Assembly: GCA_013812395.1 (NCBI GenBank)
Contig: JACCTL010000119.1
Span: 1 to 37,391 of the forward strand
Direction: 5' to 3'
Length of the DNA: 37,391 nt
Source of the DNA: Euzebyaceae bacterium
Lineage (GTDB): Bacteria > Actinomycetota > Nitriliruptoria > Euzebyales > Egibacteraceae
The notes beneath the pieces are model-generated. The model was not told the DNA's origin and searched no databases. It saw only the letters and a list, made by a program, of their open reading frames with translations. Of this stretch, positions 5,749 to 35,233 are shown one piece after another (the first letter of the stretch is position 1; each line of letters opens with the position of its first letter). The position numbers and the translations under genes are program-made.

Positions 5749-7279
5749 GTGGACATTCCTCATGGCACCGCCGCTGCTGAGGTCGGCGTCACGGTGGGCG
5801 ACGCTTTGCTCGACGGCGATGTCGAGGGTTGGTGGCAGCGCTGCGGCGCTTCGCCGCAGCTACGGCCGTTGCGGGCGGGACGGCGGCTGCTCACCGGGCC
5901 ACCGGGGCGGCCTCGGACCTTCACCGCGCGCAAGCGGACGGGGCAGATCGTGCGGTGGAGCGAGGCGTTCTCGCAGCGGCGCAGCGAACCGGTCGTCGAC
6001 TGGTATCGCCGTGTATCCGGTTGCGGCTACCTGCGTGTGACCGCGTGGCCCGACACGGGCGAGACCGGGGCAGGGCTGTGCCTGCTCTCACCGATCGAGG
6101 CGACGCCCCGCTCCGGCGGCATAGCGCTGGCACGGTCGGTTGGGTTTCTGACTGATCCGCTGACGTGGGGCTTTGCGCCCGGCGCCGACGCCGCCGCCGT
6201 GCACGACCTCGCCGGGGTAGGCACGGTCGCCAGCCGGATCCGCGAGATCAGGGTCCATGTCGTGACTGTCCCTGTCGGCACGGTCCAGGCAGCCATCGCC
6301 GCCTACGAGGGTCTGCCCGGCGTGGCGTACGCCGAGGCCAACACCGCCTGGAAGACGTTGCGTGCTCCCAACGACCCGCTACTGGAACAGCAGTACCAGG
6401 TCGACCACATCAACGCGGTCGCCGGCTGGAACCGCTACAACAACGCGGTTGACGCCAAGCCCTACGCACCCAACGGCGGCGCGACGCTGGCGATCCTGGA
6501 CTCTGGCATCGACCGCACGCACCCCGAGCTGGCCAGCAAGATCGTCGAGTGCGCCAGCTACCTGACGACGACGGGCAACCGGGTCAACGGGATGTGCCAG
6601 GACTCCAACTTCCACGGCACCTATGTCGCCGGCATCGCTTCGGGGATCGCGAACAACGCCCAGGGCATCGCCGGCATCGGCTTCGACGCAGACCTGCTCG
6701 TCTACCAGGTCTGCACCCTGTTCTGCTTCACTGCGGACTCCGCGTCCGCCATGGTCGACGCCGCGGGCTGACGCCGCCAACTACTCGTTCGGTGGCGCGA
6801 GCCCCAACAACACCAGCCGGCGCGCGGTCGAGTTCGCACACTCCAAGGGGATGCTGCAGGTTGCCTCGGCCGGCAACTCCGGCGACGAGGGGCCCAACAG
6901 CGTTGGCTTCCCCGCCGCCTACCCGAACGTGATCGCCGTCGCGGCGACCGATCGCAACAAGAAGCGAGCCTCCTTCTCCTCCTACGGCCCCGAGGTCGAT
7001 GTGACGGCACCGGGCGTTGGCATCCTGTCGACCATCCCGGGCGGCGGCTACTCCGACCGCTTCAGCGGCACGTCCTTCTCCGGGCCGGCGGTCGCCGGAC
7101 TGGGTGCGCTGCTGCGCAACCTTGGCTTGAACCACAAGCAGGCGGCGAAGGCGATCATCGACGGTGCCAACCCACAAGCGGTGGGCGCGACCGGCTTCAC
7201 CAACAAACACGGGCACGGCATGGCCGATGTCGAGGCCAGCGTCCAACGCGCGCAGCAGATCCTGCGCGCGCAACGCTGA
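5749..7279 (+). pseudogene. S8 (subtilisin-like) serine protease split by a frameshift near 6765
   Basis: ORF 5749-6771 has propeptide-like sequence, catalytic Asp (LAILDSGIDRTHPEL) and His (FHGTYVAGIASG); ORF 6623-7279 in another frame has ANYSFGG, ASAGNSG and catalytic Ser (FSGTSFSGPAVAG). Confidence 0.8.
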
Positions 7280-29885: not shown

Positions 29886-31910
29886 GTGGCAGCACAGATC
29901 ACCGTGAAGGGCCCCAACGGTTCGAGCGCTGCCGTGGACGAGGGCGTGACCGCCCAGCAGGCACTGCAGGCACTCGGGGCGATACGCGGGCAGGTGCTGG
30001 CCGCGCGCATCGACGGCGAGGTCCGCGATCTGAGCTCGCAGGTCGTCGACGGCGCAAGCGTCGAGCCGGTTGCGGCCGACTCCGAGGAGGGGCGGGCGGT
30101 GCTGCGCCACTCCGTGGCCCACATCCTCGCCCAGGCGGTCACCGACCTGTTCGGTGACGCCAAGTTCGCCATCGGCCCGCCGATCAGCGACGGCTTCTAC
30201 TACGACTTCGACGTCGCTGAGCCGTTCACACCCGACGACCTGGAACGCATCAGCGACCGGATGCACGAGATCGTCCGGGAGGCGCAGCCGTTCACCCGTC
30301 GCGATGTGTCCCGCGACGAGGCGCTGGCGCTGTTCGCCGAGCAGCCGTACAAGGTCGAGATCATTCAGGGGGTCGCTGGGCACCCCGACGAGTCGGCGGC
30401 CGAAGGCGCCGGTCCGGGAGCTGTCATCTCGGTCTACGAGAACGGTCGACCTGACGGGTCGGCCTGGCCCGACCTGTGCCGCGGCCCGCATATCCCGACT
30501 ACCAAGTGGGTGCCCAGCTTCGCCCTGCAACGGGTGGCAGGCGCCTACTGGCGCGGCGATGAGCGCAACCGCCAGCTGCAACGCATCTACGGCACCGCCT
30601 GGGAGTCGCGCAAGGCGCTGGCCGCCCACCTCGAGCGCCTGGAGCAGGCCCGCCAGCGCGACCACCGCAAGCTCGGCCGCGAGCTTGAGCTGCTGAGCTC
30701 ACCAGAAGAGCTGGGCCAGGGGCTGTTCCTGTTCCACCCCAACGGCGCCCACGTGCGCATGCAGATGGAGGACTACTCCCGCCGCGAGCACCTGCGGCGC
30801 GGCTACCAGCCTGTCTACACACCCCACATCGGGCGGTCGCTGCTGTGGGAGACCTCGGGCCACCTCGACTTTTATGCCGAGGGGATGTACCCGCCGATGG
30901 AGCTGGACGCCAGCGAGTCCAAGCCGGGCGACCGCTACTACCCCAAGCCGATGAACTGCCCCTTCCACGTGCTGGTCTACCGGTCGCGCACCCGCTCCTA
31001 CCGGGAGCTGCCGTTGCGCCTGACCGAGCTGGGGACGGTCTACCGCTACGAGCGCTCCGGCACCGTGCAGGGGATGCTGCGCGCGCGCGGGTTCACTCAG
31101 GACGACTCGCACATCTTCTGCACTCCCGAGCAAGTCGTCGACGAGGTCAACGGCGTCATCGACTTCACCCTCGACTTGTACCGCGACTTCGGCTTTGCGC
31201 AGGGGCCGTCGCGGGTGGCGCTGTCCACCCGTCCGGACAAGGCGACCACGGTCGGCACCGACGAGGGCTGGCAGCGCGCCGAGGCGGCCCTGCGTGAAGC
31301 ACTGGACCGGTCAGGGCTGGACTGGGTGGTCGACGAGGGGGAGGGTGCCTTCTACGGGCCCAAGATCGACTTTCAGATCACCGACGCCATCGGGCGCGCC
31401 TGGCAGCTGACCACCATTCAGATGGACTTCAACCTGCCGGAGCGCTTCGGGTTGACCTACGCCGGCGCCGACGGCAGCGAGCATCGACCGATCATGATCC
31501 ACCGGGCGCTGTTCGGGTCGCTGGAGCGGTTCTTCGCGATCCTGGTCGAGCACTACGGGGGCGCGTTTCCCACCTGGCTGGCGCCGGTGCAGGCCGTGGT
31601 CGTCCCCGTCGCCGACCGTCACAGCGACTACGGGCGCTCGGTCGCCGACCGGTTGCGCGAGGAAGGGCTGCGCGTCGATCTCGACGACTCGCCCGACTCG
31701 ATGGGCGCCAAGATCCGCCGCCACCAGCTGCACAAGGTGCCCTACCAGCTGATCGTCGGCGACAGCGAGGCAGCGGCCGGCACCGTCGCCGTGCGCCCAC
31801 GGCGTGGCAACCAGCGCAAGGACGTCGCGCTGGCTGACTTCGTCGACGAACTCGCTGCGGAGGTGGCGCAGCGCACAGCGCCAGAGCCGCGGGACTCGTC
31901 TGTGGCCTGA
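29886..31910 (+). CDS. thrS: Threonine--tRNA ligase
   Basis: TGS domain; LRHSVAHILAQAVTDLF; PMNCPFHVLVYRSRTRSYRELPLRLTELGTVYRYERSGTVQGMLRARGFTQDDSHIFC; GTG at 29886. Confidence 0.96.
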   Translation: MAAQITVKGPNGSSAAVDEGVTAQQALQALGAIRGQVLAARIDGEVRDLSSQVVDGASVEPVAADSEEGRAVLRHSVAHILAQAVTDLFGDAKFAIGPPISDGFYYDFDVAEPFTPDDLERISDRMHEIVREAQPFTRRDVSRDEALALFAEQPYKVEIIQGVAGHPDESAAEGAGPGAVISVYENGRPDGSAWPDLCRGPHIPTTKWVPSFALQRVAGAYWRGDERNRQLQRIYGTAWESRKALAAHLERLEQARQRDHRKLGRELELLSSPEELGQGLFLFHPNGAHVRMQMEDYSRREHLRRGYQPVYTPHIGRSLLWETSGHLDFYAEGMYPPMELDASESKPGDRYYPKPMNCPFHVLVYRSRTRSYRELPLRLTELGTVYRYERSGTVQGMLRARGFTQDDSHIFCTPEQVVDEVNGVIDFTLDLYRDFGFAQGPSRVALSTRPDKATTVGTDEGWQRAEAALREALDRSGLDWVVDEGEGAFYGPKIDFQITDAIGRAWQLTTIQMDFNLPERFGLTYAGADGSEHRPIMIHRALFGSLERFFAILVEHYGGAFPTWLAPVQAVVVPVADRHSDYGRSVADRLREEGLRVDLDDSPDSMGAKIRRHQLHKVPYQLIVGDSEAAAGTVAVRPRRGNQRKDVALADFVDELAAEVAQRTAPEPRDSSVA

Positions 31911-32440
31911 TGGACGGTGAGCGGCTGGACACGCTGCAGCGGCTGTGGACGCCGTGGCGGATGAGCTACATCAGAGGCGACGCCGGCCAGGACCCACGTG
32001 ATATCCACGGCTGCCCGTTCTGCGACCTGCCGGGTCGCGGGCGCGAGGCCGACGCCGAGTCGCTGATCCTGCACCGCGGCGACCACGCCTACGCGATCCT
32101 CAACGCCTACCCCTACAACCCCGGCCATCTGATGGCGGTGCCCTACCGCCACGTCGCCGGCCTGGATGAGCTGGAACCGGCCGAGCTGTCCGAGCTGGCA
32201 CAGCTGTGCCAGCGCGCGGTGCGCGCCCTCAAGGCCTGCAGTGGCCCGGACGCGTTCAACCTCGGGATGAACCTCGGGGCTGTCGCCGGCGCGGGCATCG
32301 CCGAGCACCTGCACCAGCACGTGGTCCCGCGCTGGTCCGGTGACACCAACTTCATGCCGGTGGTGAGCCAGACCCGGGTACTGCCACAGCTGCTGGAGGA
32401 GACCTACACCCTGCTGGCGCCGGCCTTCGCCGAGGTCTGA
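31910..32440 (+). CDS. HIT family protein
   Basis: CPFCDLPGRG...AYPYNPGHLMAVPYRHV...NLGMNLGAVAGAGIAEHLHQHVVPRW. Confidence 0.93.
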   Translation: MDGERLDTLQRLWTPWRMSYIRGDAGQDPRDIHGCPFCDLPGRGREADAESLILHRGDHAYAILNAYPYNPGHLMAVPYRHVAGLDELEPAELSELAQLCQRAVRALKACSGPDAFNLGMNLGAVAGAGIAEHLHQHVVPRWSGDTNFMPVVSQTRVLPQLLEETYTLLAPAFAEV

Positions 32441-32482: not shown

Positions 32483-33058
32483 ATGGCCATCAACGCCTAT
32501 GCGCGAACGGCGACCGACCGGCTGGTGGTGCCGATCGCCCGAGGGCTGGTCCGCGTCGGGGTCACCCCCAACTGGCTGACCTTCTTCGGGCTGGTCACCA
32601 CGCTGCTCGGCGTGGTCGCGGTGCTGCGCTACGGGCGGGCCGGTGCCTTCATCCTGGCGCTGGGCACCGCCACGGACGCCTTCGACGGCAGCGTCGCCCG
32701 GCTGCGCGGCAGCTCCAGCCGCGTCGGTGCCTTCTACGACAGCGTCACCGACCGGGTCAGCGACGCGTCGATCCTGGGCGCCGCCGTGTGGCTGGTGCGC
32801 GACGACCCGCTGCTGTTCGGCGTGGCGATGGTGGCGCTGGCCGGCGCCCAGCTCACCTCCTACGTTCGCGCCAAAGCGGAGTCGTTGGGCTGGACGGCGA
32901 CCGTCGGGGTTATCGAGCGCCCCGAACGCATGGCGATCATCGTGCTCGGCATCGGCTTCGACCTGCTCACAGCCGCCCTGTGGCTGCTGGCGATCGGCTC
33001 GCTGGTGACCGTCGCCCAGCGCCTGCATGCGGTGCTGGCGCAGGCTGGCTCCAGATGA
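32483..33058 (+). CDS. pgsA: CDP-alcohol phosphatidyltransferase, PgsA/phosphatidylinositol phosphate synthase-like
   Basis: TDAFDGSVARLRGSSSRVGAFYDSVTDRVSD plus TM segments; first gene of the PIM cluster. Confidence 0.9.
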   Translation: MAINAYARTATDRLVVPIARGLVRVGVTPNWLTFFGLVTTLLGVVAVLRYGRAGAFILALGTATDAFDGSVARLRGSSSRVGAFYDSVTDRVSDASILGAAVWLVRDDPLLFGVAMVALAGAQLTSYVRAKAESLGWTATVGVIERPERMAIIVLGIGFDLLTAALWLLAIGSLVTVAQRLHAVLAQAGSR

Positions 33059-34065
33059 CGGCCTACCGGGGGTCGGGTCATCCGGGGGCTGTGGTGGACC
33101 GCAACCCCGGCGCCGCTGGGCGGTTGCCCGAGGACTCCAGACCCGAGAGCGCGCGCCTGCGGCGGATCGCGATTGCGTGGACGGCGCTGTGGGAGGTCGC
33201 CCGCCGGCTGCCCGAGCCGGTGGCCTATGCCGGCGCCGACCTCGCCGGCCGTGTGCAGCACCGCCTGGCGCACGCCGCGCGCGCGCGCGTCCGCGCCAAC
33301 TTCGCCCGAGTGGTGGCGGCCGAGTCTCTGGACGCCACTGTCAAGGCCGCCTTCCGCTCCTACGCCCGCTACTGGGTCGAGGCGTTCCGCGCCGCCGACA
33401 TCGACCCCGCCGACATCGACTGGCGCACGACGACGGCCGGTTTCGAGCACCTCGACGCAGCCCTCGAGCGAGGGCGGGGGGTGGTGGTCCTGCTGGCCCA
33501 TCACGGGTCGTGGGACAGCGCCGCCCGGTGGGCGGAGACCCACGGCTACCATCTCGCCGTGGTCGCCGAGGTGTTGCGTCCCCGCTCGACGTTCAAGCGG
33601 TTCGTGGCCTTGCGCGAGGAGATCGGGCTGGAAGTCGTGCCGCTGGCCAAGGGCGCGCAGCTGACCGGTCGCCTGACAGAGGTGGCCGCCGCCAACCACC
33701 TCGTCGGCCTGCTGACCGACCGAGACCTGACCGGGCGCGCTCCGGTCACCGACTTCTTCGGCGAACCCGCCCGTATCCCGGTCGGCGCAGCCGTGCTCAG
33801 CCGGCGAACGGGAGCGCCGATCGTGCCCATCACGATGGTGCAGCGGCCCGGCCGGCGTTGGCATCTACAGGTGCACCCTGTCGTGGAGGTGGCCGACGTG
33901 TCCCTGGCAGCCGCGGCCGGCCGCATCGCCAAGGCGCTGGAGGCGTTGATCCAGCTGGAGCCAGCGCAATGGCACGCCTTCCAGCCGGTATGGGAGCCCG
34001 GTCTGGCCGCGCGGCGACGCGGCGGGCAGGACCAGGGCGAGCCGACGACCGGTCAGCAACCGTGA
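33055..34065 (+). CDS. patA: LpxL/HtrB-like acyltransferase, probable phosphatidylinositol mannoside acyltransferase
   Basis: VVVLLAHHGSWDSAARWAE, LTDRDLTGRAPVTDFFGEPARIPVGAAVLSRRTGAPIVPI; ATGA overlap with pgsA. Confidence 0.88.
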   Translation: MTAYRGSGHPGAVVDRNPGAAGRLPEDSRPESARLRRIAIAWTALWEVARRLPEPVAYAGADLAGRVQHRLAHAARARVRANFARVVAAESLDATVKAAFRSYARYWVEAFRAADIDPADIDWRTTTAGFEHLDAALERGRGVVVLLAHHGSWDSAARWAETHGYHLAVVAEVLRPRSTFKRFVALREEIGLEVVPLAKGAQLTGRLTEVAAANHLVGLLTDRDLTGRAPVTDFFGEPARIPVGAAVLSRRTGAPIVPITMVQRPGRRWHLQVHPVVEVADVSLAAAAGRIAKALEALIQLEPAQWHAFQPVWEPGLAARRRGGQDQGEPTTGQQP

Positions 34066-34144
34066 AGATCGCGCTGGTCTGCCCGTACGACTGGACCAAG
34101 CAACCGTGAAGATCGCGCTGATCTGCCCGTACGACTGGACCAAG
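34057..34144 (+). repeat. 44-bp tandem duplication at the patA/pimA junction
   Basis: caaccgtgaagatcgcgctg[g/a]tctgcccgtacgactggaccaag at 34057-34100 and 34101-34144, 43 of 44 identical. Confidence 0.97.
34062..34109 (+). CDS. 15-codon minicistron (MKIALVCPYDWTKQP) duplicating the PimA N-terminus
   Basis: GTG at 34062 overlaps the patA stop (GTGA); its own TGA (34107-34109) overlaps the pimA GTG (34106). Confidence 0.55.
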   Translation: MKIALVCPYDWTKQP

Positions 34145-35233
34145 CCCGGCGGGGTGAAGTTCCATGTGGCGGCGCTGGCCGCGTTCCTCGACGCCGACCA
34201 CGCGGTGCGGATCTTCGCACCGGCTTCCGGTCCGCTGGGGCGCACCCGGGCCGACCAGCTGGTCGAGGTGGTCGGCCGCCCGTTCCCCGTGCACTACAAC
34301 CGCTCGGTCGCCCCCGTGGCCCTGTCGCCGCTGGCGGTCAGACGCGTGGCGCGCGCCCTGCACGACTTCGCTCCGCACGTGACCCACGTGCACGAACCGT
34401 TGTCGCCGATGATCTCGGCGGCAGCGTCGGCATTCGCACCGCATCCGGTCGTCGGCACGTTCCATGCATGGTCCTCGTCGGACCGGCTGTATCGGTTGCT
34501 GGCACCGACCGCACGGCGGATCGTGGGTCGCCTCGACGCGCGCATCGCTGTCTCTCCGGCTGCCCAGCAGTTCGCGGCCGAAGCGATGGGCCTGCCGCTG
34601 GGCTCGTTCCGAGTCGTACCCAATGGGGTCGACGCCGCCGCGTTCGCGATGGCCCAGCCGATCCCGGAGCTGGTCGACCCTCAGCGGCCGCTCTTGTTGT
34701 TCGTGGGGCGCCTGGAGCCCAGAAAGGGCCTTGACGTGTTGATCCGCGCCTTCCTGCGGCTGCGCACCTCATGGCCTCGGGTGCGCCTGTGCGTCGTGGG
34801 AGAAGGTCCGCAGCGGCAGCGCTGCCAGCAGATGGTGCCGCCCTCAATCCGCCCGGACGTGCTGTTCGTCGGCGCGGTCGACGAGGCGCAGAAGCCGCGC
34901 TACCACGCCTCGGCCGACGTGTACGTGGCGCCCAACACCGGTGGCGAGTCCTTCGGCATCGTCCTGCTGGAGGCGATGGCCGCCAGCTTGCCGATCGTCG
35001 CCGCGGACATCGCCGGATTCCGCACCGTGATGAAGGACGGCCGCCAGGGACGGATGGTGCCGGCCGGCAACGCCTTCGCGCTGGCTGACGCCATCGGCAC
35101 GCTGCTGGCCAACCGCAGGCTGTCACAGGCCATGGCCGCGGAGGGCCGGCGCACCGTCACCGACTTCACCTGGCCGGTGGTCGGGCGCAGGATCGAGGAC
35201 ATCTACCGGGGGGTGCGTGCCGCCAACGGATGA
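34106..35233 (+). CDS. pimA: GT4 glycosyltransferase, phosphatidylinositol mannosyltransferase PimA-like
   Basis: MKIALICPYDWTKPGGVKFHVAALAAFL...VTHVHEPLSPMISAAA...VGRLEPRKGLDVLIRAF...NTGGESFGIVLLEAMAASLPIVA. Confidence 0.93.
   Translation: MKIALICPYDWTKPGGVKFHVAALAAFLDADHAVRIFAPASGPLGRTRADQLVEVVGRPFPVHYNRSVAPVALSPLAVRRVARALHDFAPHVTHVHEPLSPMISAAASAFAPHPVVGTFHAWSSSDRLYRLLAPTARRIVGRLDARIAVSPAAQQFAAEAMGLPLGSFRVVPNGVDAAAFAMAQPIPELVDPQRPLLLFVGRLEPRKGLDVLIRAFLRLRTSWPRVRLCVVGEGPQRQRCQQMVPPSIRPDVLFVGAVDEAQKPRYHASADVYVAPNTGGESFGIVLLEAMAASLPIVAADIAGFRTVMKDGRQGRMVPAGNAFALADAIGTLLANRRLSQAMAAEGRRTVTDFTWPVVGRRIEDIYRGVRAANG

Follow-up and report, generated by a model that had tools for sequence, protein, structure and literature searches.

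A tandem duplication of the patA/pimA junction in an uncultured Euzebyaceae bacterium and its putative relay minicistron

The junction between patA and pimA is present twice in tandem in the genome studied here, and the first copy encodes a 15-codon minicistron that overlaps the stop codon of patA at one end and the start codon of pimA at the other. On balance, we favour a recent slippage duplication as its origin, with the minicistron relaying ribosomes such that PimA would stay coupled to PatA, the whole being a nearly neutral by-product. The window analysed (the entire stretch of 37,391 nucleotides) makes up contig C97 in a genome of 2.19 Mb, which is 70.9% complete in 198 contigs.

Structure of the duplicated junction

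The features concerned, all on the forward strand, are as follows.

32483 to 33058, forward: pgsA-like phosphatidylinositol phosphate synthase gene (best match PIP synthase model, 151.6 bits, below the cut-off of 170)
33055 to 34065, forward: patA, phosphatidylinositol mannoside acyltransferase (NCBIfam PIM acyltransferase model, 247.6 bits against a cut-off of 209)
34055 to 34098, forward: copy 1 of the 44-bp duplication, with GTC (Val, ancestral-like), from the repeat alignment, TRF and the 35 relatives with Val
34062 to 34109, forward: minicistron, GTG to TGA, 15 aa, MKIALVCPYDWTKQP, with 4-nt overlaps at both ends
34099 to 34142, forward: copy 2, with ATC (Ile, derived), providing the functional pimA with its 5' end, from the repeat alignment, TRF and relatives
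34106 to 35233, forward: pimA, phosphatidylinositol mannosyltransferase (GT4), 375 aa, GTG start (full-length match to the solved mycobacterial PimA, E ~1e-62)
34143 to 34145, forward: AGC microhomology, the trinucleotide that opens both copies and recurs after copy 2 (TRF end 34145)

The pgsA stop codon (33056–33058) overlaps the patA ATG (33055–33057) by 4 nt, making pgsA-patA-pimA a string of overlap-joined genes. Further upstream, the thrS stop overlaps the start of a HIT-family gene by 1 nt (31908–31912); with the pgsA/patA overlap (33055–33058), the operon is thus largely overlap-joined.

A preliminary description of this DNA, made from the letters alone, had proposed that the junction occurs twice with 43 of 44 positions identical, and both alignment and TRF bear this out. 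TRF calls the array at 34055–34145 (period 44, 2.1 copies, 97% match) with a score of 175, by a wide margin the highest of any tandem repeat in the window (the runner-up scores 68); the probability of 43 tandem matches in 44 arising by chance is negligible. The sole mismatch is a G in copy 1 (GTC) against an A in copy 2 (ATC). With an AGC at either border, the array admits more than one neighbouring register, and the coordinates first given for it (34057–34144) describe the same array in another register. An exact search of the incomplete 2.19 Mb assembly found the 44-bp unit nowhere beyond the two adjacent copies, and repeat analysis of the unit reported no inverted repeat within it.

The duplicated unit spans the 4-nt GTGA overlap of the patA stop and the pimA start. 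At the first joint (GTGA, 34062–34065) the patA TGA (34063–34065) overlaps the minicistron GTG (34062–34064, GTG1), while at the second (GTGA, 34106–34109) the minicistron TGA (34107–34109, TGA2) overlaps the pimA GTG (34106–34108, GTG2). Both joints hence have the NTGA stop/start overlap of translationally coupled 4-nt gene pairs. The frames confirm the earlier proposal of a stop/start-stop/start chain, and its frame logic was likewise correct in holding that copy 1 does not extend PimA; an N-terminal extension is excluded by the reading frame. For a duplicated unit of length L spanning GTGA, TGA2 is in frame with GTG1 exactly when L = 2 mod 3, such that roughly one third of junction duplications give this chain, one third a PimA extension and one third another frame. 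The chain is therefore no great coincidence, as any overlap duplication of 2 mod 3 length produces one.

Relatives and age of the duplication

Aligning the junction in close relatives had been suggested as a check, and this places the duplication in the source genome only. The pimA start is single in all 35 relatives in which it could be read, including the sister species, which is the second genome of the genus (L003; PimA 89% identical, one junction). The ATGA/GTGA overlap of patA and pimA is kept in 31 of the 35. When two pimA starts in succession were used as a search pattern, the source genome alone matched among 66 genomes of the class (0 of 65 others), the pattern being fairly strict and liable to miss diverged duplications. 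Residue 6 of PimA is Val in 35/35 relatives, these being the genomes with a recognisable pimA start under a search motif that permitted Val, Ile or Ala at this position. By this comparison, the Val of copy 1 is ancestral-like, and the Val6Ile change in copy 2, the copy used by PimA, is derived.

The copies differ at 1 of 44 positions (2.3%), while pimA differs from that of the sister species by 15% overall and by 31% at third codon positions. The duplication is thus probably younger than the species split, an estimate with a wide error because a single substitution underlies it. Instability is expected of a direct repeat of 44 bp. That this one persisted until a substitution arose could be a sign of selection, a point against a nearly neutral relay.

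Tandem arrays and the question of an assembly artefact

The duplication could have been created during metagenome assembly, by overlapping contig ends or strain haplotypes (the G and A alleles) being joined unmerged. The fragmented and incomplete assembly, the fact that the sister species record is a MAG, and the restriction of the duplication to one genome are all compatible with such a join. The G/A difference had been put forward as an argument against assembly error; alone it is insufficient, as the mismatch could be a strain SNP and two strain haplotypes could yield it.

A better argument comes from the periods of tandem arrays in general. A 1.02 Mb sample of the source genome contains 29 rows of arrays with period ≥20, 28 of them distinct because one region was sampled twice (~28 per Mb). 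Three relatives contain 15 arrays in 0.51 Mb sampled (29 per Mb), and the array density of the source genome is ordinary background. In the source sample, the periods of in-gene arrays are divisible by three in 11/11 cases, whereas 8 of the 9 distinct gene-edge arrays have periods that are not; in the relatives, 6/8 in-gene arrays follow the same rule. The gene calls used to sort the arrays came from a rough GC-frame procedure, and part of the in-gene set may consist of old protein repeats. Even so, the contrast speaks for genuine DNA that has passed through selection as opposed to assembly joins. Furthermore, two of the relatives with equal array density were sampled from contigs >4.6 Mb. Both arguments apply assembly-wide and not to this locus in particular, where a microhomology of 3 bases is consistent with slippage. 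Taken together, we regard an artefact as unlikely.

Initiation signals and coupling of pimA to patA

Predicted anti-SD pairing is −2.4 kcal/mol at GTG1 and −3.0 kcal/mol at GTG2, compared to a window background median of −2.8 kcal/mol; hence neither start has an SD-like match above background by pairing energy, and the possibility that the duplication supplied an SD was rejected on the same grounds. The pimA start of the sister species (−3.0 kcal/mol) is also at background level, while the median of the relatives is −5.8 kcal/mol. This suggests that pimA in this genus probably relies on coupling to patA. In published work, 13 of 14 tested overlapping gene pairs were coupled (PMC6728339), and the last 15 nt of an upstream gene were enough for coupling (PMC10666635); the duplication carries just 7 nt upstream of the start, which counts against the relay. 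According to a review, reinitiation works best at spacings from −4 to +3 nt, with losses by ~+40 nt that vary between studies (PMC12548453), and 80–100% of reinitiation in E. coli is abolished when the spacing is +38 nt (PMC10666635).

These values bear on whether the duplication is real DNA but inert, copy 1 not being usefully translated and PimA starting unaided at GTG2 or later. Predicted mean unpaired probability around GTG2 is about equal to that of a one-copy control (0.48 vs 0.48), as would be expected of an inert insertion. However, GTG2 is without an SD-like match, would sit ~41 nt past the patA stop, and has a start codon of lower predicted accessibility than in the control (0.27 vs 0.41), which makes an inert duplication a rather improbable account. 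Control by a hairpin was also rejected, given that no inverted repeat was reported in the unit and overall predicted accessibility is hardly altered.

In the favoured slippage-and-relay model, AGC would most likely be the point at which slippage during replication, or a template switch, produced a 44-bp tandem copy of the conserved patA/pimA overlap. As 44 = 2 mod 3, the frame opened at GTG1 runs exactly into TGA2. Ribosomes finishing PatA would restart at GTG1, read 15 codons, terminate at TGA2 and restart once more at the pimA GTG2, the minicistron thereby restoring a −4 joint at both steps despite 44 bp of inserted DNA. With two 4-nt overlaps, reinitiation at each step of the chain is to be expected, coupling in this lineage being itself predicted. 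The duplication would be tolerated because the minicistron passes ribosomes on to pimA; without it, 41 nt would separate the patA stop from the pimA start, and in published tests coupling is almost lost at such a distance. PimA yield is predicted to equal that of the one-junction ancestor or to fall somewhat below it, since two successive reinitiations presumably add no ribosomes unless there is fresh loading between them.

Comparison with known systems

One close parallel is with 4-nt overlap pairs that work by termination-reinitiation (PMC6728339; PMC10666635). An RTGA overlap is found at each joint, and the same mechanism is expected for both, but here two such joints stand in tandem, separated by a 15-codon frame. 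Mycobacterial interspersed repetitive units (MIRUs) integrate at start codons and carry with them a small frame that has −4 nt coupling, a feature that has been read as making the insertion tolerable (PMC12548453). The minicistron at 34062–34109 is similarly a small ORF at a start codon joined at −4 nt. MIRUs, in contrast, are a dispersed and apparently mobile family, whereas the present unit is a local copy of a host junction; identity as a MIRU was rejected, as the exact genome search placed the unit at two adjacent sites only. In engineered bicistronic designs and short upstream frames (PMC13255528, PMC10367133), a short frame just upstream likewise feeds ribosomes to the target. The short-ORF booster differs in having a strong internal ribosome-binding site beside the stop of the short frame, while the minicistron has none (−3.0 kcal/mol, background level). 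Searches of the literature on slippage-type tandem duplication in bacteria and on the patA-pimA overlap found nothing directly usable.

A second duplicated junction and possible regulation

Elsewhere in the source genome (L095, contig C125, 6156–6247), a 41-bp tandem array sits where an M48 peptidase gene (Pfam PF01435) meets a GT4 glycosyltransferase gene. The peptidase stop falls within ATGA (6174–6177) in copy 1, and copy 2 has ACGA at this point, in frame with the glycosyltransferase. The length of 41 is 2 mod 3, and the missing TGA would have shared a frame with the ATG of copy 1 (ATG1). Calculated from coordinates, the peptidase and transferase residues that can be aligned are 142 nt apart, against 57 nt in the sister species; the junction has thus grown, by 85 nt and not 41. 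The array looks like an older, decayed junction duplication of a similar kind. We tentatively raise the possibility, itself doubtful, that duplication of RTGA junctions at 2 mod 3 lengths is a recurrent, self-buffering source of relay minicistrons, with patA/pimA a fresh case and L095 a decayed one. If the patA/pimA case is real, it shows how a tightly coupled operon can take up extra DNA of a length not divisible by three without damage, because the duplicated overlap brings its own stop and start and, at a suitable length, restores the coupling. It would also provide a testable rule for which lengths mod 3 overlapping junctions tolerate, and a possible origin of very short frames between operon genes.

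The preliminary description had further suggested that PimA translation is tuned by reinitiation or ribosome loading. The reinitiation part is expected from the 4-nt overlaps; the tuning part fares poorly for a recent duplication found in one genome, with a chain that follows automatically at 2 mod 3. A device selected for tuning PimA yield, by ribosome loading or attenuation, would be in keeping with the exact chaining at both ends, with a second junction duplication of 2 mod 3 length in the same genome, and with the ability of engineered short upstream frames to raise translation in E. coli (PMC13255528). Against this, the duplication is confined to one of 66 genomes of the class, the prior for a chain given a junction duplication is already 1/3, no SD-like motif lies near the minicistron stop, in contrast to the engineered boosters, and in the second case the stop/start of copy 2 is gone. 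We hence give this explanation little credence. The patA/pimA duplication is probably a natural accident in an uncultured bacterium, for which selected tuning or regulation is only a candidate role.

Two minor observations concern other arrays. Those at L108:8096-8210 and L066:16201-16302, on different contigs, have a common motif like GTGTCCTACCG...TCGCTACTTGAGGACA and possibly belong to a dispersed repeat family of the source genome. In the sister species, tandem arrays at L005:9-138 (45 bp × 3.0) and L005:1335-1474 (71 bp × 1.9) lie ≤1.5 kb downstream of pimA.
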